DNA from: a virus
IMG/VR virus record: IMGVR_UViG_3300031787_000469
Coordinates: 1 to 34,313 of that record
Length of the DNA: 34,313 nucleotides
Strand: one strand, 5' to 3'
Shown here: piece by piece, positions 8,170 to 32,431 of the stretch
Layout of the letters: each line of letters begins with the position of its first letter
Numbering within the stretch: position 1 is the first letter of the stretch
The notes under the pieces: generated by a model
Told to the model about the DNA's origin: nothing
Database searches by the model: none
What the model saw: only the letters and a program-made list of their open reading frames with translations
Made by a program: the position numbers and the translations under genes

Positions 8170-8703
8170 CTATTTAACATCCATATCCCAGGAAGTAATC
8201 ATACGAAGTTTGTTTGTTTTCATGGCATCAGCATAATGTATCGTTGAACTTGGCCAAATATACATTACACCTTCTTTGGGATTTGGAATAGAAGCAAGTT
8301 GAGTTGTATCATTTACTGGATCATTCCATGGTCCAATAAACTTAGTCGGTTCATGGACTTTATCATTATATTCGAGGTAAAGTAGTCCAGTATATCCAAT
8401 CGAACGATGGTTATGTGGGCAATGATTTTCGTTCCTTTTTGTATATTTTAAGGTCCAGATATCAGTTACTCTTAAGTATTTAAGTTCTGCTTCTGTCTTA
8501 AACTGTTCTAGTTCCTCTGCAAAAATATTTTCAAAATCAAGGGCATATCTATTCTTTTTAGAATGGCGATCTGTTTGAAAAGTATTTGCTCCGTAATAAT
8601 CAAATTTGTTTTGATTTATCCTAGACAATAGTGCTTTCTTTTTACGATCCCATTCATTGACTTCATAAGAAAAAAGAGGAACATAAAATAGAATATTAAT
8701 CAT
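8170..8703 (-). CDS. putative 2OG-Fe(II) oxygenase
   Basis: A 177-residue protein whose second half fits a double-stranded beta-helix oxygenase: PHNHRSIGYTGLLYLEYND with His97 and His99, then a sheet ending GVMYIWPSSTIHYADAM with His156 and, ten residues on, Arg167 (LRMITSW). The distal His-x10-Arg pair is typical for metal and 2-oxoglutarate binding. The usual HxD is replaced by HNH, so metal ligation may differ. Its ATG overlaps the stop of the next oxygenase as ATGA. The substrate is unknown. Confidence 0.7.
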   Translation of the reverse strand: MINILFYVPLFSYEVNEWDRKKKALLSRINQNKFDYYGANTFQTDRHSKKNRYALDFENIFAEELEQFKTEAELKYLRVTDIWTLKYTKRNENHCPHNHRSIGYTGLLYLEYNDKVHEPTKFIGPWNDPVNDTTQLASIPNPKEGVMYIWPSSTIHYADAMKTNKLRMITSWDMDVK

Positions 8704-9410
8704 CTGTCATTAGCATGATGAACAAATGGTCCTTGTGCGTTTACATAGTGTAGGAAGATTTGGTGATGATAGGTATCATCTTCTTTCTTACGGAATGTGC
8801 GCCACAGGTTTTCCAATTTACTATACTTGGATTCTAGTGGGTCACGCCAGTGCTCACGCTCGCATCCTTTATAAACAGCAGCATCACCATTCTTCATTAG
8901 AACATAAGACTCACTACCATCAGGACGCTCAAACCAAATTGGCCAAGGATTGGAAGAGTTAGTGCTAATTTGAAGAGTCACACTGACTTCACACGCAGGG
9001 CGATCACTATGACGCCTTAGTTGCTGACCAACATAATAGAAGCGGTCATAGAAGTAGGTAGGAAGCAAATCAATACCAAGACGCTTCTCTACTTCCTTAC
9101 GAACAAGATAGTGAAGTTCCTTATACATTGGAACATTATATCGTGCTAGTGAACCATTCACCTGCTTTTCATCTGGGACATAAGTAAATTTATCCTTACG
9201 GACATAATTCATTTGCCCCGTGATACGATTACCATTCTCGTCAAGTGGAGGAGCACAGTAAAGATTTTCTGGGTCGGCAATGAGTCCTGGCATGAAAAGA
9301 TATCCATTCTTCTCGAAAGACTCATTCTTCGTCATATTGGTGGTGGTTGGAATAGCACAACGCTGATACCCATCTTCATAGACACCACCAGTTGATACAT
9401 ACTCTTTCAT
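8700..9410 (-). CDS. 2OG-Fe(II) oxygenase-like protein
   Basis: I start at ATG 9410 (MKEYVSTGG), whose A is shared with the preceding TGA and which has GAGG upstream; the frame extends further but would overlap. The 236-residue product carries YDRFYYVGQQLRRHSDRP with H134-x-D136, then GDAAVYKGCEREHW with H187, and a Tyr-His-His C-terminal region. This is the layout of the phage and algal type of 2OG oxygenase that carries a GDxxxYxGxxxxHxR motif. It probably hydroxylates a protein or small molecule. It is the middle gene of three overlapping oxygenase genes (10027 to 8170). Confidence 0.8.
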   Translation of the reverse strand: MKEYVSTGGVYEDGYQRCAIPTTTNMTKNESFEKNGYLFMPGLIADPENLYCAPPLDENGNRITGQMNYVRKDKFTYVPDEKQVNGSLARYNVPMYKELHYLVRKEVEKRLGIDLLPTYFYDRFYYVGQQLRRHSDRPACEVSVTLQISTNSSNPWPIWFERPDGSESYVLMKNGDAAVYKGCEREHWRDPLESKYSKLENLWRTFRKKEDDTYHHQIFLHYVNAQGPFVHHANDR

Positions 9411-10027
9411 CACTTCCACCTCGGGCCAACCACCCAACCTACAAGACTCTTACGCAAACCAGACTTGACCTTACGAACACGGTGCTTGGTGCGTGAGTCA
9501 AATACCATCAGAGTTCCACGCTGCTTCGGAGCAAAGTAAGTCTCACCACCATTATCAAGGAACTGAACTTCGCCACCAGTATAGTCACTGGGGTCAGAGA
9601 GTTGAAGAGCAAAGGACAACTTCCTTACATACTCGCCATTCAAAGTCACTTGGTCTTGACTCATGTTTGTTCCCGAACCAGGAACCAGTTGTGGTTTGTA
9701 AAAGGTATCAATATCTGCGTCCTGGTGCCAATTATAAAACTGCCCTTCACCATATTGGGTATATTGAATACTTCCACCATCAATATCGGTCAGATCGTAG
9801 CAGAAGTTCTCACGGTTTACTTTATCAATATAATACCACAACCAACCACCAATCCAATGTGAAGTAGGAATCCAAGCATTCTTACTATTGCGGATAACCT
9901 TATCCACTTGCGCTCCCATGATCTGGGAGTCTGCCGCAATAGAGTCGAATGTTTGAAGGTCTTTTTCTACAATTTCTACGATTTCAGTTGGCAAGTTAGT
10001 CATGTGCCAACAGGTTAAAAATGCCAT
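9410..10027 (-). CDS. PKHD-type (PiuC-like) 2OG-Fe(II) oxygenase
   Basis: A 205-residue protein starting MAFLTCWHMTN. Catalytic residues are visible: FYNWHQDADID with H101-x-D103, GGEVQFLDNG, and KHRVRKVKSGLRKSLVGW with H182 and R192. These match the PiuC/PKHD hydroxylase family, common in cyanophages and often linked to iron uptake in bacteria, though the phage substrate is unknown. I reject the upstream Met at 10120 because the promoter and leader lie there. A perfect sigma70 promoter precedes it. A diverged copy of this promoter and of codons 1-44 recurs at 26144-26334. Confidence 0.9.
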   Translation of the reverse strand: MAFLTCWHMTNLPTEIVEIVEKDLQTFDSIAADSQIMGAQVDKVIRNSKNAWIPTSHWIGGWLWYYIDKVNRENFCYDLTDIDGGSIQYTQYGEGQFYNWHQDADIDTFYKPQLVPGSGTNMSQDQVTLNGEYVRKLSFALQLSDPSDYTGGEVQFLDNGGETYFAPKQRGTLMVFDSRTKHRVRKVKSGLRKSLVGWVVGPRWK

Positions 10028-10051
10028 AGTCGAATAATATTCCTCAGTTTG

Positions 10052-10080
10052 ATTATATATGATTGTAATAAAAATGTCAA
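10052..10080 (-). promoter_or_regulatory. perfect-consensus sigma70 promoter
   Basis: TTGACA (10075-10080), 17 bases, TATAAT (10052-10057): all 12 positions match at ideal spacing. The -35 overlaps the stop codon of the sulfotransferase-like gene. It reads into the three-oxygenase operon. The same promoter recurs at 26306-26334. Confidence 0.88.
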
Positions 10081-10787
10081 TAAAAAATTTTCTGCTGATA
10101 TTGAAGAAAGTTGCGATCAACCCACCTAATTAAATCACCAATTTCAGAAAACTGATCGCACAAACCATCATCAATAATACCAAAGGAAGGATACAATGTT
10201 TTAACCAATCCTAAATTTGGTATTTCTGTCTCGTTAATTGGTTTTTCATTTCCTATCAAACCAAAAGACTTTACATAAACATTAGATAGTTCATAGTTTT
10301 TTACTCTATCTAAATTAAAGTGATCACATACTTTATCCATAGTTTCTTTTTTATTCTTAAAAAAACTATTTGATTCTATCCACAAAACATCATCAACTTC
10401 TTTCATCCATTGAACATTATTCAACCATATAAAAGCAATTTTTTCAAGATCAGTTTTAAACTCAAATTCTTTTAAAGATGGGTGGCAGTGATCTAAATGA
10501 TGCTCATATTTTTTAGATATGATACTTCTAATATAATTTGATGATTTAATTTTAAACAGATGATGTTTTAGTTTTCTATATAAAAATACTTTTTTGCCTG
10601 ACAGTTCATTTGAAAAGGGACACCATCCACTTCCAAATTTAATTGTAACATTATCAAGTTCCAAGTCACCATTCAATAAACTAGAAGTCCACGGTGGTTC
10701 ACAATAAACAGTTGTAGAGTTGGCCAATAATGTTGCCATTAGCGTTGAACCACAGTGAGATGTGTGGTAAATTTGATTAATTTTCAT
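10077..10787 (-). CDS. sulfotransferase-like P-loop protein
   Basis: The start chosen is ATG 10787 (MKINQIYHTSHCGSTLMA), giving 236 residues. The IYHTSHCGSTLMATLLANS segment at residues 6-24 resembles the 5'-phosphosulfate loop of PAPS-dependent sulfotransferases (variant with SHCGSTL in place of PRSGSTL). A CEPPW motif follows, which is seen in the same subgroup. Later segments are helical, including VDDVLWIESNSFF. It would transfer sulfate to a glycan or protein, but the acceptor is unknown. Many Ile, Lys and Asn codons make it visibly AT-richer than the replication genes, as is its neighbour at 10777-11421, which it overlaps by 11 bases. The pair may have come in together. Confidence 0.65.
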   Translation of the reverse strand: MKINQIYHTSHCGSTLMATLLANSTTVYCEPPWTSSLLNGDLELDNVTIKFGSGWCPFSNELSGKKVFLYRKLKHHLFKIKSSNYIRSIISKKYEHHLDHCHPSLKEFEFKTDLEKIAFIWLNNVQWMKEVDDVLWIESNSFFKNKKETMDKVCDHFNLDRVKNYELSNVYVKSFGLIGNEKPINETEIPNLGLVKTLYPSFGIIDDGLCDQFSEIGDLIRWVDRNFLQYQQKIFY

Positions 10788-11421
10788 GTGCTTTTTGGTA
10801 ATCAACTCCAAAGAAATGAGATATACAATATCTACCATTTCCAGAATAATAATCTGTATCTTCTATACTTACCCACTTAACTCCATGAGTAACATATGAT
10901 GGTAACAGAATTAAACTGTTGTTCGTACATTTAAATTCATAATCTCCATACTCTGGAAAAAATAATTCACCACCCGTAAACTTTCTAGGTTCTCTATTAA
11001 AATAACTGAATGCTAAAAAGTCATGATTTATATCGGTATGGGGTGCGTAATAGTCACCATCATGATAATACCTAACTTTTGTATAACAATAATTGGTGTG
11101 TAGAATTTTTTTATGTTGAGGAAACTTATCATAAAAGATATTCAAAAACCCATGATTGAATAACTTTTGAGTAACAGTTATAATGTTGGAAATATTTTTA
11201 TCATTATAAGAAACATCCAGTTGTATTGATCTGGATTTAGTTAAAATCTCCCCAGTTTCTGGATGAACTGCTCCGTGAATGTATCCCGGATCATAAAGTT
11301 TTCCTGGTTTAGTTAAGAATACAAGTTCTTCCCAAATTAAATCTAACTCTTCGTCAGTATAAAAGTTTTCTATAGTCAAATGAGGAAATGGATCTTTAAA
11401 TATACTTATCTTCCTTTCCAT
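10777..11421 (-). CDS. 2OG-Fe(II) oxygenase
   Basis: A 214-residue protein beginning with an FPHLTIENFYTDEEL motif typical of phage prolyl-4-hydroxylase-like proteins. Metal ligands are APHTDINH with H128-x-D130 and SYVTHGVKW with H179; R197 in GRYCISHFF would bind 2-oxoglutarate. A KFTGGELFFPEYG strand lies between. It probably hydroxylates a protein or glycan precursor. It overlaps the sulfotransferase-like gene by 11 bases and shares its AT-rich composition. No promoter is evident in the short AT-rich gap to the fibre gene upstream. Confidence 0.85.
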   Translation of the reverse strand: MERKISIFKDPFPHLTIENFYTDEELDLIWEELVFLTKPGKLYDPGYIHGAVHPETGEILTKSRSIQLDVSYNDKNISNIITVTQKLFNHGFLNIFYDKFPQHKKILHTNYCYTKVRYYHDGDYYAPHTDINHDFLAFSYFNREPRKFTGGELFFPEYGDYEFKCTNNSLILLPSYVTHGVKWVSIEDTDYYSGNGRYCISHFFGVDYQKAHEN

Positions 11422-21407: not shown

Positions 21408-22412
21408 TTAACGGAAGATAGCTACAGACATCACCACACCATCTGCAGAAGTGCCAGAACCATAACGACCATGCCAAAATTGTGCAGAGGTAGTAGTATA
21501 ATTGCCAACAGTTTCACCTCCCACTCCACATGCATATTCATATTGTCCAATAGCAATCAAAGCATAATTTGAATCTGCTAAAGCGGTGCTAAAATTTACA
21601 GTATATCTGCCAGTAGAATTTCTTGATATGGAACTTGTATTATGAGAAGCACGAATACTACCATTTGAACCATTAAAATTTACCCAGACACGAGCACCAT
21701 TACCAGAATTAACACCGCGCCAAGAACCGAAACCATTACTCTCATTAAATCTTACAGACAGATAAGGTTTAGATGAATTTCTATCAACAGCAAACATAGC
21801 ACCATAAGATCCACTTCCCGTTGCTGGATATTCACTACCAAGTCCTATATACCAAGAATAAAACTGATTACCTTCATTTGATCCAACATCGCCTGGACCA
21901 TTTCCACTACCTTGAACAAATCTAAATCCAAAATCATATGAAGGAGTAGTGCCAAAAGAGGTTCTAGTGCTATGAACCCCACCCATATTATTGAACAAAT
22001 TTACGGCACTAATACCGTTGAGCGTAGTAGCATCGGTAGTAGTTAGTCCACCAGCACCTTGAGTACCAGTAGTTCCCTGTGCTCCCGTCGTACCTTGAGA
22101 ACCAGTAGCACCCTGAGTACCTTGCGTTCCAGTTGCTCCTTGTGTTCCCGTTATACCCTGCCTACCCTGAACTCCCTGTACCCCTGTAGTACCCTGTGCC
22201 CCTGTGGTTCCTTGAACGCCACCAGTGCCTTGTACTCCCTGAATACCAGCAGTAGAACCTCCCCAAGTTCCATCAGATCTGATCGCCTGAACGGCACCAA
22301 CAAACAGACCACCAGAAGTAATACGAACCGTCGTCGCAATACCTACTGTTTTATTTGTATTATCTACACTTACAAAACTTCCAAATTCAGAGAGTTCTCT
22401 ATTATTAGCCAT
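21408..22412 (-). CDS. collagen-like tail fibre protein
   Basis: A 334-residue protein: N-terminal module MANNRELSEFGSFVSVDNTN through GTWGGSTAGI, shared with the gene at 15100; one collagen-like shaft of Gly-X-Gln triplets (about 60-117); then a globular beta head of about 215 residues with NLFNNMGGVHSTRTSFGTTP, SYDFGFRFVQG, GARVWVNFNG and FSTALADSNYALIAIGQYEY. The last element resembles the common fibre-tip pattern of a strand ending in SNYALxxxG. It is the first gene of the main fibre region in transcription order and has its own late promoter. Confidence 0.88.
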   Translation of the reverse strand: MANNRELSEFGSFVSVDNTNKTVGIATTVRITSGGLFVGAVQAIRSDGTWGGSTAGIQGVQGTGGVQGTTGAQGTTGVQGVQGRQGITGTQGATGTQGTQGATGSQGTTGAQGTTGTQGAGGLTTTDATTLNGISAVNLFNNMGGVHSTRTSFGTTPSYDFGFRFVQGSGNGPGDVGSNEGNQFYSWYIGLGSEYPATGSGSYGAMFAVDRNSSKPYLSVRFNESNGFGSWRGVNSGNGARVWVNFNGSNGSIRASHNTSSISRNSTGRYTVNFSTALADSNYALIAIGQYEYACGVGGETVGNYTTTSAQFWHGRYGSGTSADGVVMSVAIFR

Positions 22413-22433: not shown

Positions 22434-22441
22434 TATTTATT
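22434..22441 (-). promoter_or_regulatory. T4-type late promoter core over a stop codon
   Basis: AATAAATA on the minus strand, containing the TAA of the DUF6445 gene at 22437, 22 bases from the fibre ATG at 22412. Confidence 0.65.
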
Positions 22442-23030
22442 CAGCATCAAAAAAGAACATATGAAACAGTCGTGAATCATACTTATCATAACCAAAATAT
22501 TTAGAAGCAGTATGGGGACACTTGGCATCCCAAATCACCAAACGATTAAACACATTCGCAATCACATCAATATGATCCCAGGGTGTTGGGTCTAAGTGTT
22601 GCTTCTCCCAGATGACATCAGACCCTTCTGTATTCACATGACGAATACCAGTCTTCTTATGAGCAAGTAATGAAGTCCCACACTCATAAGGAGCATCAGG
22701 AGTTAGATAGACAGTCGCAGCCCAGGTCTGAGCATCGGCGTGATAGACCAGAGCGTCTTCACAAGTACAGTGTTGAAAGCGACCACACATCCCATGAGTT
22801 TCCATCCAATTCGAAACTTTCATCCCCATGATACTTTCAAATGCTTCTTTTGTTCCTGGTATTTCAAACTGATGTTCAGTTCTTCTACCACGATGATAGT
22901 CACTGAAATGAAACTCTTGACTTAAAGCAAACTCCCGAACTGTCATTGGGTCTTGATAGAAATTATCAATGACCCATAGAGTTGGATTGGGTTGAGTATT
23001 AATCGTCTGGTTGTCTAATGTGTATCTCAC
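22437..23030 (-). CDS. DUF6445-type 2OG oxygenase-like protein
   Basis: The start is GTG at 23030, overlapping the preceding TGA as GTGA. The 197-residue product has TLWVIDNFYQDPMTVREFAL near the start, ALVYHADAQTWAATVYLTPD with H97-x-D99, GTSLLAHKKTGIR, FNRLVIWDAKCPHTASKYFG with H173, and R187 near the end. The HADxxTWAAxVYLTPDAP and GGTSxxxHKxTG pattern matches DUF6445, a family with the 2OG-Fe(II) oxygenase fold found in marine phages and bacteria. The conserved HxD, H and R argue for activity. It is the last gene of the 26281-22437 operon. Confidence 0.8.
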   Translation of the reverse strand: MRYTLDNQTINTQPNPTLWVIDNFYQDPMTVREFALSQEFHFSDYHRGRRTEHQFEIPGTKEAFESIMGMKVSNWMETHGMCGRFQHCTCEDALVYHADAQTWAATVYLTPDAPYECGTSLLAHKKTGIRHVNTEGSDVIWEKQHLDPTPWDHIDVIANVFNRLVIWDAKCPHTASKYFGYDKYDSRLFHMFFFDAE

Positions 23031-25180
23031 GGTTCTACTGCGTTCTCACAAAGTTTACAAAGTTCAAAGCACTGATTGTTCTCAGGCACAATGTCCTCAT
23101 AAGATTGCTCATAAAGATTTCCAAGAATATGTTTGAGACCATAGTCCATACAGCACAGAGACACATCACCATTTGGAAGCATCACATTATGATACATTTT
23201 TTCCAAACAACCACAGGTCATTTGTTTTTCACCGTGATTGGCAATCTTCCATTCTGCTTTTCTTTCCAGCAGTTCTGGTTTCATAATCATCTCACCGACA
23301 AGATTACCTGCTCGTGACCACATATCATAAACAGGAGCACTTGAAAACACATGGCGTACATCTTCATGAACAGTTCCCATACACATCGTTGTGAAGTTAT
23401 GAATCTGATTTTGAATCTTACCAAAGTGCTCAATGACTTCAATATAACGCTTGGTGATTGGGTGTTTTGCTTTCCGTTCTTGATCTGGAAGATGAAGTGT
23501 AAAGCAACCATTTGGATTTCCAGCAAATGGAATGTGCTTGATACGCTCAATGTCATCAATACTCATACCAATACCAGTGGTAAAGATTGAGATTGGATGC
23601 CCTTTTTCGTGAGCATAAAGAACCATATCAGTACAGTCCTTATTCAACCAAGGCTCAGTGAATCCAGCAAAGGTCACTCTAACCTCCTGTGGGAGTTTAT
23701 CAACTGCTTTCTTGAAGTTGTCCAGCGTCATAAACCTTTCGCCCTTGTAGGACTTCTGAAGAGTCCTTTGTGGGCAGAAGACGCAATCAACCACACAACC
23801 ATTCTGAGTATCAATGGAAGTCGTAAACTCCATTGTCGGAGCGATTGAGTTTCTCCAACGGTCCTTACCACTGAAACGATTGTCAATGTACAGATTGATT
23901 GTGGTGTAGTAATCCAGGAACCATTCACCATTATCAGTCCCATACAAATGCTGCTTGATATTTACATAGTCGGCAGAATAAATCTCATAATTATTCAGTT
24001 GTTTTAGATAAGTCTCTCTGAAACGAAGGAACTTTGCTTGAAGTTCTGGTGTTCCCAAGTGAAACTCACCAGCAACCTTCTTCACATTGTTCTTAATCCA
24101 TTGTAGGTTCTCATCATTGAAAATATCATACTCACCACCTTCACAGTCAGTCTTCAAGAAATCAATCTGAGTAATATTATTCTGCTCCACAAAGTCCTTG
24201 AACTTAACCGAAGGAATTGTCTGACGATTCTCATCTTCACAAGTTTCCAGTAGGTCTTCATTAAACAGACCAGCACTTTCAAACTCACCAGTCACAGGAC
24301 CGATTGCCTGATTCACACAGACAACATTTTCACCTGATACATTACCCAGAAGAGTCTGATACAGTTCTGGATGTGGTTCAAAGCAATAAACCTTGCCTGG
24401 GTTTTGATCCTTGATAAAGTGAGTAAATGGACCAGCACTTGCTCCTACATCAAAAACAATATCTCCCTCTTCTACCTTGAAGAATTTCTGATAGACATTA
24501 TCAATGAAAACTTCTTTCTCTACGGTCTTACGGAACCATTCATTCTCTGCGGCAATCCCCCAATCAAAATCTCTATGCTTCTTTGGCAGATAAACATTAT
24601 GAAGACCCTTAGAAGTCTCAGAGAGTCTTTGTAGATTGTTCTCAACTGCCTGCTTATGAATCTCATCTAAGTCATAGTTCTCATAAAGATCTTCTAGAAG
24701 ACTACGACTTTCGTGGCATAGACCAACCCACCAAGAAGACACTGCTTTCTCAAACAGAATACCATAGAAACCAGGATACTCTACATTCAGAATCAGTGGT
24801 TCTGAATCTTGTTCTGATACTTTTTCACCAATAGATGCGATCAAATAGGCATCGTGATAGTTCTCTTCTCTCTCATAGAAACGACTCAGAAGATAATAAC
24901 CTTCTGGACGAGTCGGCATAATCGCAAGAGCATGTTGAAATAGTCCCTTGACCGTTGTGTTCCTACAACCTTGCTTACTAAAACATAATCCAGCACGAAG
25001 AATACACTGATACTTAATCAGTTCTGACTGAGACCGTTCGGCAGTTCTCAGATAATAAGACACTGCAGAGGCAGACTGTTCAATGTTATCGTAGTAAGTT
25101 CCAAGATAGAAGTTGTTTTCTGGACTCTCTGGATCTTGAATAAACTTATGAAGTAAATTTTGTAGGTTATAATCAATCAT
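23027..25180 (-). CDS. TPR / FkbM methyltransferase / radical SAM-SPASM fusion protein
   Basis: A 717-residue protein with three parts. Residues 1-200 are helical repeats of TPR type (NNFYLGTYYDNIEQSASAVS, RPEGYYLLSRFYEREENYHD) like those following phage glycosyltransferases. Residues 223-400 form an FkbM-type SAM methyltransferase with DVGASAGPF at 244-252, CFEPHPELY at 266-274 and LKTDCEGGEYDIF at 342-354. Residues 445-717 carry a radical SAM core with C462-x3-C466-x2-C469 and a SPASM-like cysteine cluster (C656, C658, C676, C677, C704, C708, C711). It could modify a glycan or peptide by methylation plus a radical step. The ATG overlaps the GH130-like gene by 8 bases. The domains are firm; the substrate is unknown. 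Confidence 0.88.
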   Translation of the reverse strand: MIDYNLQNLLHKFIQDPESPENNFYLGTYYDNIEQSASAVSYYLRTAERSQSELIKYQCILRAGLCFSKQGCRNTTVKGLFQHALAIMPTRPEGYYLLSRFYEREENYHDAYLIASIGEKVSEQDSEPLILNVEYPGFYGILFEKAVSSWWVGLCHESRSLLEDLYENYDLDEIHKQAVENNLQRLSETSKGLHNVYLPKKHRDFDWGIAAENEWFRKTVEKEVFIDNVYQKFFKVEEGDIVFDVGASAGPFTHFIKDQNPGKVYCFEPHPELYQTLLGNVSGENVVCVNQAIGPVTGEFESAGLFNEDLLETCEDENRQTIPSVKFKDFVEQNNITQIDFLKTDCEGGEYDIFNDENLQWIKNNVKKVAGEFHLGTPELQAKFLRFRETYLKQLNNYEIYSADYVNIKQHLYGTDNGEWFLDYYTTINLYIDNRFSGKDRWRNSIAPTMEFTTSIDTQNGCVVDCVFCPQRTLQKSYKGERFMTLDNFKKAVDKLPQEVRVTFAGFTEPWLNKDCTDMVLYAHEKGHPISIFTTGIGMSIDDIERIKHIPFAGNPNGCFTLHLPDQERKAKHPITKRYIEVIEHFGKIQNQIHNFTTMCMGTVHEDVRHVFSSAPVYDMWSRAGNLVGEMIMKPELLERKAEWKIANHGEKQMTCGCLEKMYHNVMLPNGDVSLCCMDYGLKHILGNLYEQSYEDIVPENNQCFELCKLCENAVEP

Positions 25181-26147
25181 TCAGAAACTCCTCTAATACA
25201 CTCTCATCAAATTTAAGCAAGTAAGCAGCATTATCTTGGAAACCAAAAGTCATCAACATACTACCATTATGTATTGCTAGTCCAACACAGAACTCTACAT
25301 GACCACCCATAATGAAAAACTTCTTGGACCATTTTTGAAGTCTGAAATTTTTATCCCAGAACAGGACTCGGTGATAGTAGACGGCATCTTTTCTACCTAC
25401 TTCACTGTTAAACAAATCTACTTCGTGAGTGATCGCAACATACCCATCCTTCCAGGGAATGACTTGTGATCCTCCTCTTGGATAGCCGTCTATTGGATTC
25501 TTCTTATCCGTGAAGATTTGTTCTGAGGTTCCAGTATTTGGATTGATCTTAACCAGTTCAGTCGGATTACTCCACTTAATATAATGATAGGGTTTATCCA
25601 GAATCGGCATCCAGTTCTTTTCACAATAAGAAGTCGGATCCAGTGGTGGTTGAATCCGCAACTGTGAAACTTGCTTGACAGTATTATTATCTACAACAAT
25701 CTCACACAACTCCATCCGCCCAGTTCCGATGGTGTCTTCATCTCTTCGCACACCAGACAGATAAAGTTTTCCATTCCACCGAAAGAGACGAGCATCTTCT
25801 AGACCCACAAAGTCCCAGAGTTCTTTATCAGGAAATGCCGAAGTATCTATCTTACAATACCGTTCAATCTCATAGGCATCATTGAGTTCCAGATAATAGT
25901 TCCAGGTTCTCAGGTGAATATCATTCTCTGGGTGAACATAAGTCAGGGGGCCATAAGGATGCTGAAATAACTTCTCTTCCGAATGATAGAAAGTATAGTT
26001 AACCTGACGAAGATTAACCAGTACTTTTCCATTATCAATGAGAATGGATGGATTCATCAGTCCAAGTCCACCCGTGAACTTTGGATCAATAATCAAAGGG
26101 TGAATAGAACCACCCTTATCAAAAGCAACTTGTGCGAATGTTTTCAT
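25173..26147 (-). CDS. GH130-like five-bladed propeller protein
   Basis: A 324-residue beta-rich protein with repeated blade-type motifs: MNPSILIDNGKVLVNLRQVN, VGLEDARLFRWNGKLYLSG (GLEDAR at 115-120), CEKNWMPILDKPYHYIKWS, GGSQVIPWKDGYVAITHEV and GGHVEFCVGLAIHNGSMLM, then TFGFQDNAAYLL. The N-P-S, G-x-E-D-x-R and K-N-W blade spacing recalls family 130 beta-mannoside phosphorylases and related propellers. It may act on a glycan, perhaps with the methyltransferase fusion that follows. Its ATG overlaps the stop of the truncated PiuC-like frame (ATGA), so translation may be coupled to that fragment. A glycosyltransferase-linked propeller without catalysis is the alternative. Confidence 0.62.
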   Translation of the reverse strand: MKTFAQVAFDKGGSIHPLIIDPKFTGGLGLMNPSILIDNGKVLVNLRQVNYTFYHSEEKLFQHPYGPLTYVHPENDIHLRTWNYYLELNDAYEIERYCKIDTSAFPDKELWDFVGLEDARLFRWNGKLYLSGVRRDEDTIGTGRMELCEIVVDNNTVKQVSQLRIQPPLDPTSYCEKNWMPILDKPYHYIKWSNPTELVKINPNTGTSEQIFTDKKNPIDGYPRGGSQVIPWKDGYVAITHEVDLFNSEVGRKDAVYYHRVLFWDKNFRLQKWSKKFFIMGGHVEFCVGLAIHNGSMLMTFGFQDNAAYLLKFDESVLEEFLND

Positions 26148-26281
26148 TTAACCTTATCCACCTGCGATCCCATAATCTGAGAGTCTTGTGCGATGGTGTC
26201 AAACTTTTGAAGATCTTTCTCTACAATCTCTACAATTTCAGTTGGCATATCAGTCATGTGCCAACAGGTTAAAAAAGCCAT
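26144..26281 (-). pseudogene. truncated copy of the PiuC-like oxygenase 5' end
   Basis: A 45-codon frame, MAFLTCWHMTDMPTEIVEIV through SQVDKVK. Residues 1-44 match the N-terminus of the oxygenase at 9410-10027 at 38 of 44 positions, then stop. All catalytic residues are missing, so it has no oxygenase activity. Its TGA overlaps the ATG of the GH130-like gene. The copy also includes the full promoter (26306-26334), and DNA similarity begins at the -35 box. Many differences are synonymous, so the copy is not recent or came from a related phage. It may survive as a leader frame that passes ribosomes to the next gene. Confidence 0.85.
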
Positions 26282-26305
26282 AAATGAATAATATTCTTCA
26301 GTCTC

Positions 26306-26334
26306 ATTATATAGGATTGTGGCGAAGGTGTCAA
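26306..26334 (-). promoter_or_regulatory. perfect-consensus sigma70 promoter (second copy)
   Basis: TTGACA (26329-26334), 17 bases, TATAAT (26306-26311). It is the counterpart of the promoter at 10052-10080, with the same boxes and spacing but a diverged spacer. It reads into the truncated frame, the GH130-like gene and the fusion protein gene. Confidence 0.87.
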
Positions 26335-26354: not shown

Positions 26355-26388
26355 CCAAAACGCTGAGAGGGTGGTCAAGTGGGGGGGA

Positions 26389-26541
26389 TTAAAAGTAATA
26401 AGATGCCGTGACTGGTAGGTTTTCCTTTTCGTTTGTGACGACTGGTGTAAGATTCCAAGAAAAACTTGGATTTAACATAAAGTTCTTAATGTTCTCAAAC
26501 TCTTCTTGTGAAAGAGCATTGTCTATAATTTCATAAGTCAT
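26389..26541 (-). CDS. short frame, probable remnant of a second oxygenase
   Basis: A 50-residue frame starting MTYEIIDNALSQEEFENIKN and reading FMLNPSFSWNLTPVVTNEKE before ending in TASYYF. The start pattern (xYxIIDNxLxxEEFxxIKxxM, then F-x-W) matches the N-terminus of a cyanophage 2OG oxygenase family whose members are normally about four times longer. Nothing that looks like the remainder follows; a C7 tract and the palindrome come next. It is either a truncated gene or a short peptide. It lies 4 bases after the gene at 26546. Confidence 0.5.
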   Translation of the reverse strand: MTYEIIDNALSQEEFENIKNFMLNPSFSWNLTPVVTNEKENLPVTASYYF

Positions 26542-28442: not shown

Positions 28443-29203
28443 TTATAATGAATATTAAAGGTTTCTTTTTGTTCTTTGATATAAGTTTCGTTCACAACTT
28501 TCTTCCAGTCTATGATAGGACTGGTGTGATTTTCATCGCAGTGAGTGCTCCAACCAGGCATTGGAGAAATTAAATATCTCTCTTGTTTCTGCAGTTCCCA
28601 GAACTTATCATAATCTTTTGAGAAATGAAATCCCTCTTCTTTTTTCACACCATTTATAGAATGTTTTTGATGTATCTCCAAGTCTTCTATGAGTGTCTTA
28701 TATTTACAGGCAAAGGTATTAGTTGTTACCGGTACTGCTCTCCAATGAGAACTTGGTGTTGCAAAGATTTCACATAAGTATCCTTTTGCAATAAATAAAT
28801 TAAAGTCATAAAGAGTAAGATAATGAGAGTTAATCTCAAATCCTTCTAGCATTATATCACACCAACCAGGACGATGTAAATAATCATCTTCTAGTAAGTA
28901 AATGATTTGTTCATCATCAAAGTTTCTTGATTGGATAATTTCTAATGTTTTTAGAAAACTATCAGTCTCACTTCCACACTTAATGATTTTCACATTCTTT
29001 TCTTTTGCAAGAAAGGTCTTATCAATACTACCATAAAACTCATCATAAACAATCGTATAGTTTATCAAGTCTGGATTGAGAGTATTCTTAAAGTTCTCAA
29101 AGACTTTAATCTTATTGAACCAAGAAGGTCTTGTTCTGTCTGGAAGTTCTTGGAGTTTTGAGTAATAACAATGTCTTATAAAGACTTCAATTGGTTTTTT
29201 CAT
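28439..29203 (-). CDS. GT-A-like glycosyltransferase, EDDYLH family
   Basis: A 254-residue protein. IIYLLEDDYLHRPGWCDIML places E105-D106-D107 where GT-A enzymes keep the DxD metal site. A nucleotide-fold N-terminus (PIEVFIRHCYYS, INYTIVYDEFYG, VKIIKCG) precedes it, and HWRAVPVTTNTFACK, SPMPGWSTHCDENH follow. The EDDYLH core and the later HW-x-x-x-x-T-T motif are shared with the gene at 30050, so the two are paralogues. Acceptor and donor are unknown. Its ATG region overlaps the oxygenase at 29200 and its stop overlaps the GT9-like ATG. Confidence 0.75.
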   Translation of the reverse strand: MKKPIEVFIRHCYYSKLQELPDRTRPSWFNKIKVFENFKNTLNPDLINYTIVYDEFYGSIDKTFLAKEKNVKIIKCGSETDSFLKTLEIIQSRNFDDEQIIYLLEDDYLHRPGWCDIMLEGFEINSHYLTLYDFNLFIAKGYLCEIFATPSSHWRAVPVTTNTFACKYKTLIEDLEIHQKHSINGVKKEEGFHFSKDYDKFWELQKQERYLISPMPGWSTHCDENHTSPIIDWKKVVNETYIKEQKETFNIHYK

Positions 29204-29769
29204 TGATACTTCATTTTATTTTTTTTAGTTTTATCTATCTTATTAGTTCTCCACTGAATAGTAACTCTTTTTTTGATTGTTCCAGGAACAATACAAGTTA
29301 CACAATGTACATTATGAGGGTCTTCTTCTGTTGCAGAGTTTACAACCATAGAGTTATAAGTTGGTTCTATACCTTTGATTTCTTTTGTTTGACTATCTTT
29401 ATATAAAAATACTCCGCCATCATCACTATCCCATTCCTCATTTAAGTATATTGTACCATTATAAGGGTAACAATTATCTGGATGCCAGGTGATATAAGAA
29501 CCACCACCCCAAACATAAATGGAGGGAACAAAGGTTAAATCTTCTTTCTCAAAATCAACATCAAGTGCCGTTTCTATACTACTCTTGATTTCTTTTTCTA
29601 AAGTCTTATTTGATATTCTATGAGTAAGTATATTGGATGATATGAGACTTAAGTTTTGGTCCCATCCAATACTTGACCCCCATAAATCTGCACCCATTAT
29701 AGACTTAAAGTAATCCATCACATTTTTAATCAAGTGTTCATCTAGAACATTATTATAAGTTCTTATCAT
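29200..29769 (-). CDS. 2OG-Fe(II) oxygenase
   Basis: A 189-residue protein with YVWGGGSYITWHPDNCYPYN (H96-x-D98), GTIYLNEEWDSDDGGVFLY, then NVHCVTCIVPGTIKKRVTIQ (H155, R168). Spacing fits the phage 2OG oxygenase type with a WHxD motif and a D-D-G-G-x-F/L turn. It lies between two glycosyltransferase genes, so a hydroxylated protein or sugar acceptor is a fair guess. Confidence 0.85.
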   Translation of the reverse strand: MIRTYNNVLDEHLIKNVMDYFKSIMGADLWGSSIGWDQNLSLISSNILTHRISNKTLEKEIKSSIETALDVDFEKEDLTFVPSIYVWGGGSYITWHPDNCYPYNGTIYLNEEWDSDDGGVFLYKDSQTKEIKGIEPTYNSMVVNSATEEDPHNVHCVTCIVPGTIKKRVTIQWRTNKIDKTKKNKMKYQ

Positions 29770-30057: not shown

Positions 30058-30865
30058 AAGTCACTCCAAATGATTTGAGTTTTGAGTATTTATTCCACCA
30101 GTCCAAGTGATGAATATGAGGGTCTCGTTGTTTCTCAAACTGAATGTGAAGAGCAAGAGAAGGCACAGGATTTAAACGAATCACATAATGTTTCCAGATA
30201 TTTGAGATTGTATTTCCTTCGTGAACAAGTTCTTCTATTGGGTCTATTCCATTCCAAGGTGTATATTTTGATGCAAGTTTCTCAAAGACTTCCCAGTGTT
30301 CCTGAAAGACTTTAGGTGTCGTCATCATTGTAAAAGTCGTCCATATTCCTTCTTTCCAGTGTCTTATTGGTGTTCTAAACAATCTTCCAGGAAACATATC
30401 TCGTAGTTCATAATCTTCTGGATTATCAAAAGGAAACAAACAAAGGTCTTTTTGAAGATGATAATAAGACTTTAAATAACTATAAGAAAACAACATTTCT
30501 TGGATTGCTTCTATGCAGTGTAAGTAATCATCTTCTACAGAATATACTAAATCAGCAGTAGAGTTCTTGCAATACTCAAACTGCTTTAATCCACTATGAT
30601 TAAATCCTTTTACTTCTAAATCTATAAGTTGGTATGAATGCTTTGAGTGTTTAAAGATTTTATGAACTTTAGAAATACAATCAGTAGTGCAGTGGTCATT
30701 AAGAACAACAAAAGAAATCTCTGCATCTGTGACTACATTTGCAGAGTTAATCAAGGAAGATAAGCAACCAAGTATCAGGTCTTTTTTGGGTATATCAATA
30801 TACCTTGGTTTACATCCGTGTATATTTTGACCATCGTGTATTCTTAAGATGATTTCAAGTTTCAT
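30050..30865 (-). CDS. GT-A-like glycosyltransferase, EDDYLH family
   Basis: A 271-residue paralogue of the gene at 28439. ADLVYSVEDDYLHCIEAIQE places E111-D112-D113 at the metal site. The N-terminus KLEIILRIHDGQNIHG and ISFVVLNDHCTTDC form the nucleotide-binding strands, and FPFDNPEDYELRDMFPGRLF, RHWKEGIWTTFTMMTTPKVF correspond to the acceptor side. The last residues include HIHHLDWWNKYSKLK. Substrates are unknown. It overlaps the sulfotransferase gene by 4 bases. Confidence 0.78.
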   Translation of the reverse strand: MKLEIILRIHDGQNIHGCKPRYIDIPKKDLILGCLSSLINSANVVTDAEISFVVLNDHCTTDCISKVHKIFKHSKHSYQLIDLEVKGFNHSGLKQFEYCKNSTADLVYSVEDDYLHCIEAIQEMLFSYSYLKSYYHLQKDLCLFPFDNPEDYELRDMFPGRLFRTPIRHWKEGIWTTFTMMTTPKVFQEHWEVFEKLASKYTPWNGIDPIEELVHEGNTISNIWKHYVIRLNPVPSLALHIQFEKQRDPHIHHLDWWNKYSKLKSFGVTYD

Positions 30866-31695
30866 TTATACTCAATAAACTTTTTGTCTAACTTTTCAAT
30901 AATATCAGCATCAATTTTATGTCCTTCTTTCCAGAACTCCATATTCATTTCCTTATATTTTTGAACAATTTCTGGAGGTAGAATAAATCTTGGAGGGTTA
31001 TATTCTACTTTTCTCTTGACTGTATGGAGGTCTTTAAGATTACAAGCCTTATCAAAGTTCTCATTTGAGTATTCTACATTCTCAAAGTCGTGAGCATAAT
31101 AAGGTCTCTCCAGAAACTCATAGACCTTTCTCATTGTCTTCTCTGGAGTTTTACATAAGTTCTCATAATCAATCAACATAATCATTTCTGGGTTCATTGC
31201 ATAACCTTCACGAAGTAGTATCCAAGGACCTGCAACAATACCACCATTTCTATCCATCATACCATCACAACGAGCAAATACACTATCTTTGTGTGCTGTA
31301 AGAGTTGTAGTATGAAATGGATTTTTGGATGCAATCAACTCAAAGGAGTTAAGAATAGAAACTATGTCTCTTACAGGACATAAGATTTTAGTATAAGGAA
31401 AAAGTGCTTTGAGAAATGGTGTCTTTTTAGTCCAACCACGAGAACTATCAAAGATGACTGGTTTCTCTATGTGTTTATAATACCCATCAAAAACTCCATA
31501 CATTAGATTTTTTCTTTGGTCTTCTGTGATATTAAGGTTATTTTCACCACTTGTAATCACATCAATAGAGTTTCCTGTAAGTCCTTGTACTGGTGATGCA
31601 ATATCAGCATAGAAGTCTGGGTTCTGTTTGAGAATACCAGAAAGTAATGTAGAACCAGACCTTGGAAGTCCGGAGATAAAGTAGTAGGATTTCAT
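30862..31695 (-). CDS. sulfotransferase family protein
   Basis: A 277-residue protein with a textbook PAPS-binding loop, FISGLPRSGSTLLSGILKQN (GLPRSGSTLL at about 9-18), and a second phosphate-binding segment, ILCPVRDIVSILNSF, near residue 105. The C-terminal part contains MLIDYENLCKTPEKTMRKVY, the usual sulfotransferase L-x-x-x-P element. It would sulfate a glycan or protein using PAPS from the host. With the glycosyltransferases beside it, a sulfated-glycan product is plausible. Confidence 0.88.
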   Translation of the reverse strand: MKSYYFISGLPRSGSTLLSGILKQNPDFYADIASPVQGLTGNSIDVITSGENNLNITEDQRKNLMYGVFDGYYKHIEKPVIFDSSRGWTKKTPFLKALFPYTKILCPVRDIVSILNSFELIASKNPFHTTTLTAHKDSVFARCDGMMDRNGGIVAGPWILLREGYAMNPEMIMLIDYENLCKTPEKTMRKVYEFLERPYYAHDFENVEYSNENFDKACNLKDLHTVKRKVEYNPPRFILPPEIVQKYKEMNMEFWKEGHKIDADIIEKLDKKFIEYK

Positions 31696-31701
31696 AAAGA
31701 A

Positions 31702-32325
31702 TCAGGTTTCTTCGGTCTGTGTTGGATATGCAATACTACCTTTAGGAAGAGCAATCAAATTAAATGAGATTGAGATGCGTTCTTCATCGTGATTGTTGGT
31801 TTCTACTGAATGTGGTAAGTAAGAAGGAAAGAGAATAATATTACCTTCTACTGGTTCAATACGAATACTTTCTCCTGTGAACTGGTTCTTCTGTGCAGTA
31901 AGAGCACAACCATTCCACATTTTATTGATTGCTGGATTTTGGAGTACCAGTTTTCCACTTTCTTCTGGTGCTTGGAGATAGAAGACTCCAGAGAATACAT
32001 CTCCGTGTACGTGCTCACTATTCATACACTGACGAGTATCATTAATGTTTAACCACGCAGAAGTAAGTGCAATATCACAATCCACAAAGTCTAAATCTCC
32101 AACTGCCTTAAATCCCAACTGACAGAGATACTCAAGGAGTGGTCGTAGTTCTTCTACTCCGTGTAATGTATCTGGTGATTGATAACTAGCAATATTTGAT
32201 TTTTGTACTGAAGGGTTTTGGTCCTTATAAGTTCTTACTGCATTCAGGAAGATTTCTTTGTGTTCCTCAAACTCTGGATATTCACTTTGCCAGAGAGGAA
32301 CTGAATAAATCGGCATTAAGTTCAT
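31702..32325 (-). CDS. 2OG-Fe(II) oxygenase (TIGR02466-like)
   Basis: The start chosen is the ATG at 32325 (MNLMPIYSVPLW), which gives the family-typical opening. The longer frame to 32388 adds a segment that overlaps a separate small gene. The 207-residue product has SEHVHGDVFSGVFYLQAPEE with H107-x-D109, GKLVLQNPAINKM, GNIILFPSYLPHSVETN with H172, and R183 (ERISISFNL). This order matches the phage 2OG-FeII family described by TIGR02466. Likely hydroxylates a protein, substrate unknown. It ends 7 bases from the sulfotransferase gene. Confidence 0.88.
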   Translation of the reverse strand: MNLMPIYSVPLWQSEYPEFEEHKEIFLNAVRTYKDQNPSVQKSNIASYQSPDTLHGVEELRPLLEYLCQLGFKAVGDLDFVDCDIALTSAWLNINDTRQCMNSEHVHGDVFSGVFYLQAPEESGKLVLQNPAINKMWNGCALTAQKNQFTGESIRIEPVEGNIILFPSYLPHSVETNNHDEERISISFNLIALPKGSIAYPTQTEET

Positions 32326-32362
32326 AATGATTTCAGTGTAAGTTTCTCGTATTTTACCATAT

Positions 32363-32431
32363 TTAGATTGTTTCGTAAAGGTCATCAATCAGTTCACTTG
32401 CGTCTTTATAGATTTGAAGATTTTCAACCAT
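32363..32431 (-). CDS. possible 22-residue peptide
   Basis: ATG at 32431 opens MVENLQIYKDASELIDDLYE and ends TI. It is amphipathic and acidic, has no clear ribosome site and ends 37 bases before the oxygenase ATG. It fills part of the gap after the lectin-type fibre gene. Peptides of this size occur elsewhere in the window, but support is weak. Confidence 0.35.
   Translation of the reverse strand: MVENLQIYKDASELIDDLYETI

Follow-up and report, generated by a model that had tools for sequence, protein, structure and literature searches.

What does a protein that joins TPR-like repeats, an FkbM-type methyltransferase and a radical SAM enzyme do in a phage, and is it the product of a single gene? 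The question was raised by a 717-residue frame in a 34,313-nucleotide stretch of viral DNA (IMG/VR record IMGVR_UViG_3300031787_000469, positions 1 to 34,313; hereafter the window). An earlier note, made from the sequence alone, had assigned the three domains to this frame and proposed that it acts with a neighbouring propeller enzyme and a DUF6445 oxygenase on fibres or on a surface glycan. The window comes from a T4-like cyanophage, of which it covers a part: it has gp32 and ThyX, and its DNA matches phages of Synechococcus and Prochlorococcus.

The three domains are encoded in one genuine frame

The frame is a single ORF with an ATG start on the minus strand (Table 1); the plus-strand reading of the same interval is interrupted by stop codons. 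A search for the same fusion, as the earlier note had advised, recovered the architecture from Synechococcus phage DSL-LC02 (tblastn, 100% coverage, 85.5% identity) and from viral contigs at 54% identity or more. A scan of IMG/VR gave 50 loci, with the three-domain frame continuous at 54–92% identity, and the same architecture was present in 28 ORF entries from the viral loci that were fetched, which reduce to 11 at 95% identity. The presence of the same frame in DSL-LC02 and in many viral contigs ruled out a chance or mis-joined fusion, so that the three domains do belong to one protein. The open-access literature searched contained no description of the combination of propeller, TPR, FkbM, radical SAM and DUF6445, in agreement with the statement that the architecture was not known as characterised. 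The nearest parallel is a paper on pelagimyophages that mentions cassettes of radical SAM genes in their host-recognition region (PMC7029224). It too concerns phages and a hypervariable region with tail fibres but does not speak of TPR, SPASM or fused modules; the likeness to the cyanophage cassette is one by description.

Structure prediction, likewise proposed in the note, yielded an AlphaFold model of the fusion with a mean pLDDT of 92.4 and a pTM of 0.56, the latter meaning that the placement of the domains relative to each other is poorly predicted. The model bore out the TPR and the radical SAM/auxiliary parts, while the FkbM domain rests on sequence profiles; a family missing from the structure matches is not excluded by its absence. 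The predicted TPR domain (about residues 1–190) is all-helical and matched O-GlcNAc transferase (OGT) and other TPR structures with Z scores of 14–17, and a TPR_17 Pfam match fell under its cut-off. OGT and SPINDLY likewise carry a TPR domain ahead of an enzyme domain, which is GT41 in these proteins, in contrast to FkbM and radical SAM in the phage fusion. The FkbM domain scored 48.4 bits with Pfam Methyltransf_21 (residues 244–392, cut-off 22.7) and 73.7 bits with NCBIfam fkbM_fam (cut-off 37.7), and has the DxEGxE motif as D345-C-E347-G-G-E350; profiles and motif both assign it to the FkbM methyltransferases.

Table 1. Features of the cassette and its surroundings, in positions of the window.
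Feature	Position	Strand	Basis
717-aa fusion: TPR, FkbM methyltransferase, BtrN-like radical SAM/twitch (predicted)	23027..25180	-	ORF (ATG), Pfam/NCBIfam, relatives, AlphaFold model
TPR domain, residues 1-192	24605..25180	-	model helices 6-189; structural matches; weak TPR_17
Linker and FkbM methyltransferase domain, residues 193-437	23870..24604	-	Pfam 1.5e-12, NCBIfam 2e-20
SAM-binding motif IVFDVGASAGPF, residues 241-252	24425..24460	-	sequence
FkbM DCEGGE motif, residues 345-350	24131..24148	-	sequence
Radical SAM core and auxiliary (twitch) domain, residues 438-717	23030..23869	-	Pfam; BtrN 4M7T; invariant columns
CxxxCxxC radical SAM cluster motif (C462, C466, C469)	23774..23797	-	invariant in 20 sequences
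Auxiliary cluster cysteines C656/C658, C676, C708, C711	23048..23215	-	conservation; alignment to BtrN
GH130/GT108-fold five-bladed propeller, 324 aa, cassette gene 1	25173..26147	-	model; structural matches; invariant residues
DUF6445 protein, probable 2OG-Fe(II) oxygenase (H97, D99, H173, R187)	22437..23030	-	Pfam, PHROG 1644, conservation
TTGACA-17-TATAAT promoter-like site upstream of cassette	26306..26334	-	12/12 match
Truncated 5' end of 2OG-oxygenase gene, running into propeller gene	26144..26281	-	identity to 9895-10066
Adjacent collagen-like tail-fibre gene	21408..22412	-	Pfam/PHROGs
ATAAATA late-promoter-like element of collagen-like gene 21408..22412	22434-22440		sequence

The radical SAM part resembles BtrN

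A Radical_SAM Pfam match above the cut-off (1.4e-9, residues 458–551) and a CxxxCxxC motif invariant among the aligned sequences assign the C-terminal part to the radical SAM superfamily. The seven further cysteines that had been counted are present (656, 658, 676, 677, 704, 708 and 711). Among 20 aligned relatives, 656, 676, 677, 708 and 711 were invariant and 658 nearly so, which is enough for one auxiliary cluster, and C704 was not conserved. The description of this region as SPASM-type therefore holds insofar as an auxiliary-cluster domain is present (SPASM Pfam 1.5e-5, residues 658–698), but a two-cluster SPASM domain was rejected because the conserved auxiliary cysteines are too few and the top structural match for residues 439–714 was BtrN (4M7T; Z 18.0, 215 aligned residues, 20% identity). 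BtrN was also matched in a sequence profile search, and the sugar enzyme DesII was among the structural matches. C676, C708 and C711 align with cysteines of BtrN and C656/C658 are at most one residue away from its fourth; the part is best described as a BtrN-like twitch protein with one predicted 4Fe-4S auxiliary cluster. BtrN, a 2-deoxy-scyllo-inosamine dehydrogenase, performs the two-electron oxidation of the aminocyclitol DOIA and holds its one auxiliary cluster with four cysteines (PMC9012708). The phage part shares with it the fold, the CxxxCxxC motif and the auxiliary cysteine pattern with a final CxxC, but is fused to TPR and FkbM; moreover, C677 and M678 of the fusion take the places in the alignment of the F and E that come after the second auxiliary cysteine in BtrN, so that a substrate other than that of BtrN is likely.

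The fusion lies between a GH130-like propeller and a probable oxygenase

The fusion is the second gene of a minus-strand cassette in the order propeller, fusion, DUF6445 protein. It overlaps the upstream propeller gene by 8 bases (25173–25180) and the downstream DUF6445 gene by 4 bases (23027–23030), which makes the three genes one tight cassette. This order is unchanged in DSL-LC02, where the cassette lies beside collagen-like genes and on the opposite strand. In Synechococcus phage S-SCSM2R, the propeller gene is followed by a TPR–methyltransferase–DUF6445 fusion without radical SAM, so the cassette core can do without the radical step.

The label "propeller" was correct: the predicted model (pLDDT 92.4) has a five-bladed propeller fold, which is shared over the whole protein with GH130 mannoside phosphorylases and GT108-type, GDP-Man-dependent mannosyltransferases (MPT-1, MPT-2) at Z scores of 18–25 (24.9 to 5AY9, 18.9 to MPT-2). 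N32, R47, E117, D118 and D305 were invariant in 70 sequences and match by motif N74, R89, E141-D142 and D363 of BT3780, in an alignment that is weak but co-registered; mutation of these BT3780 residues lowers or abolishes activity (PMC4599007). The propeller may share with the GH130/GT108 enzymes the E-D catalytic pair and the sugar-site residues Asn, Arg and Asp. Sequence identity to these enzymes was 9–17%, no match to Pfam GH130 (PF04041) was obtained at 0.1, profile-profile comparison with GH130 proteins (hhalign) scored weakly and a PDB sequence search with the propeller gave nothing useful. As there is no GH130 sequence-family match, we term the propeller GH130-like and not a GH130 member. 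Unlike the GH130/GT108 enzymes, it occurs in phages partnered with TPR, FkbM and radical SAM modules. The fold also covers hydrolases and phosphorylases, which counts against the putative propeller reaction proposed below.

For the third gene, the DUF6445 assignment stands (Pfam 2.6e-6, 28 bits against a cut-off of 24; also PHROG 1644), and its naming as an oxygenase derives from conserved motif residues: D99, H173 and R187 of an HxD...H motif with a distal Arg were invariant and H97 nearly so, which makes it a probable 2OG-Fe(II) oxygenase. A PDB sequence search with this protein gave nothing useful. Elsewhere in the window, 2OG-Fe(II) oxygenase genes are found at 8170–8703, 9410–10120, 29200–29769 and 31702–32388, an ORF at 10777–11421 has a 2OG-oxygenase match that narrowly misses the Pfam cut-off. 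The window also carries a sulfotransferase gene at 30862–31695.

Cassette modules are fused in many arrangements

Profiles of the propeller (PROP), TPR, FkbM, FkbX (a second FkbM-like domain, named from its sequence pattern), radical SAM (rSAM) and DUF6445 were run over all fetched viral loci. IMG/VR contained at least 598 confirmed PROP stretches and 367 rSAM stretches, the best 80 of each being fetched. Cassette modules were carried by 135 deduplicated viral gene clusters. Among the 97 clusters with PROP, 88 had TPR, 51 FkbX, 48 rSAM, 36 FkbM and 36 DUF6445, counts that are conditional on retrieval with PROP, rSAM or the whole fusion as query and that include clusters cut off by contig ends. 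TPR and rSAM were joined as TPR-FkbM-rSAM, TPR-FkbX-FkbM-rSAM, TPR-FkbM-FkbM-rSAM and TPR-rSAM, the propeller occurred in PROP-rSAM, PROP-FkbM-rSAM and PROP-DUF6445, and DUF6445 was further found in TPR-DUF6445 and FkbM-DUF6445. The FkbM domain was missing in L025–L027 and present in two copies in L014, L015 and L024. In other phages, GT2/GT7C, Methyltransf_24 and FkbM domains were fused to the cassette TPR proteins, and GT2 lay inside or adjoining the cassette in 5 of 8 records having a GT2 match. Identity to the fusion changed sharply between modules, with 66% for TPR, 69% for FkbM and 99% for rSAM in L004, and 61% for TPR and 94% for rSAM in L025. Recombination near the domain borders would give such a pattern, and these steps suggest recent module exchange. 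What had appeared to be a single odd protein is instead one of the arrangements of a modular system that recurs in many viral contigs and across many aquatic phage genomes. The functional tie to the propeller and DUF6445 neighbours, also proposed at the outset, is supported by the overlapping genes and by the fusion of the same parts in other phages, since fused modules would imply a joint function.

The cassette lies next to fibre genes and has its own promoter-like site

A perfect TTGACA-17-TATAAT site precedes the cassette of the window, and the site of the DSL-LC02 cassette matches at 11/12 positions. Sigma-70-like sites of at least 11/12 occurred upstream of 13 propeller genes out of 98, where mononucleotide shuffles would give 0.2, and upstream of none of 43 collagen-like genes. 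ATAAATA elements resembling T4 late promoters precede the fibre genes of the window, where this heptamer is mildly enriched overall (16 found, mean of 10.35 in shuffles). In T4-like phages, sigma-70-like sites suggest early expression, with which enzymes acting later on fibres remain compatible. The 172 bp upstream of the propeller gene (26147–26320, within 26120–26320) are 83.7% identical to 9895–10066, which spans the start of the oxygenase ORF at 9410–10120 together with its promoter; the stop codon of the truncated oxygenase frame overlaps the propeller ATG. The duplicated stretch has the look of a recombination junction, by which the cassette would have borrowed its promoter. A short ORF further upstream (26388–26541) resembles, by eye, the start of another 2OG-oxygenase gene and is a second possible gene remnant.

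The proximity to late fibre genes that had been pointed out was borne out by the adjacent collagen-like gene. In six of the seven records checked, the exception being G008, collagen-like fibre genes were no more than about 6.5 kb away from the cassette. Among the neighbouring families the collagen-like one was the largest: it comprised 120 ORFs in 71 distinct forms, with GxQG repeats in 66 of them.

Relatives of the radical SAM part in cells and other viruses

In bacteria, most relatives of the radical SAM part are separate, unfused proteins. Genes for a GT2 glycosyltransferase, a sulfotransferase, a pyruvyltransferase and a flippase lie near them, and a search of the surrounding 10 kb gave no relative of PROP, TPR or DUF6445. 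In the tree, 22 of 23 viral rows and one WOR-3 gene joined radical SAM genes of Cyanobium and Aphanothece (support 100/98), indicating that the nearest cellular relatives include picocyanobacterial genes. The Cyanobium relative (L056) lies between a UDPGT glycosyltransferase-like gene and a large AMP-binding/PP-binding/reductase gene, and the ORF layout in Aphanothece (L057) is similar. The WOR-3 gene (L059, 9971–10879) is nested among the phage sequences in the tree, has genes for GT2 and DNA polymerase B nearby, and is possibly part of a phage region. A Methanomicrobiales virus (L054, 8037–8777; BK063669.1) has a stand-alone relative among head-assembly genes, and two 735-kb uncultured phage genomes (LR756501.1 and LR756503.1) have a relative with 27% identity at about 191 kb.

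Possible function of the cassette

From the domains, predicted folds, key residues and repeated fusion observed here we infer the following reactions. The propeller would form or remodel a glycosidic bond, probably of beta-mannose type, the TPR domain would hold the acceptor or partner enzymes, and FkbM would O-methylate a sugar hydroxyl with SAM. The BtrN-like domain would cleave SAM to a 5'-deoxyadenosyl radical that takes a hydrogen from a ring carbon, the second electron would pass to the single auxiliary cluster and the alcohol would be oxidised (or epimerised), and the DUF6445 protein may hydroxylate the product as a 2OG-Fe(II) oxygenase. We consider it fairly probable that the fusion is the central multi-enzyme of such a modular phage glycan-tailoring cassette. 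The BtrN top match, DesII, the mannoside-enzyme propeller, GT2 and the polysaccharide neighbours of the bacterial relatives count for sugar chemistry; FkbM, radical SAM and 2OG enzymes could also have a peptide or small-molecule substrate. If glycans are tailored, the chance that a tail-fibre protein is the carrier is close to even, a host surface glycan is almost as likely a carrier, and another carrier or a small molecule is improbable. Only tentatively, and with considerable doubt, do we put forward an interchangeable phage toolkit that writes a radical-SAM-derived, O-methylated sugar on the phage's own collagen-like fibres, with the TPR domain as targeting hub.

If the second of these carriers applies, the cassette would act during infection on host surface polysaccharide and not on the virion, for example to block superinfecting phages, an explanation that is unlikely yet deserves serious attention. 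The cassette's own sigma-70-like promoter, of a kind enriched before propeller genes, and the opposite direction of cassette and fibre genes in DSL-LC02 speak for a host-surface target; the bacterial relatives in polysaccharide loci also favour it, and the same role has been proposed for pelagimyophage glycosyltransferases (PMC7029224). It is countered by the resemblance of the TPR domain to that of the protein-modifying OGT, and by the recurrent nearness of collagen-like fibre genes (in a region that is hypervariable anyway); nor were genes for a lipid carrier, a flippase or an acyltransferase noticed among those of the cassette. Direct, RiPP-like modification of the backbone or side chains of collagen-like fibres, without a sugar, would suit the closeness of the fibre genes, the several 2OG oxygenases of the window and the frequent use of peptides as substrates by radical SAM enzymes with auxiliary clusters. 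We regard it as highly improbable, since the top structural match is an aminocyclitol enzyme, DesII was also matched, the most constant partner is a propeller of mannoside-enzyme fold and the bacterial relatives are housed in polysaccharide loci. A metabolic role for the radical SAM gene, for instance as the heme synthase ahbD, is hardly credible: the NCBIfam ahbD match reached 26.8 bits, far under the 500-bit cut-off, the closest structure is BtrN, and the domain occurs in changing fusions with FkbM, TPR and the propeller. Apart from this weak match, the label has a precedent in a Baltic virus survey that lists 261 viral "ahbD" genes, with both radical SAM Pfam domains in only three contigs (PMC9301287); some of these could belong to the radical SAM family of this cassette.

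Viral radical SAM genes may thus be mislabelled in metabolic-gene surveys. Sugar-modifying enzymes of phages are already known, but none of the papers searched was found to describe a toolkit of GH130-like propeller, OGT-like TPR, FkbM and BtrN-like modules in many permutations. Such a toolkit makes radical chemistry on a glycan of the virion or the host accessible to experiment and suggests a way in which this chemistry passes between phages and cyanobacteria. If the toolkit does write sugars on the phage's own fibres, module recombination would diversify the virion surface.
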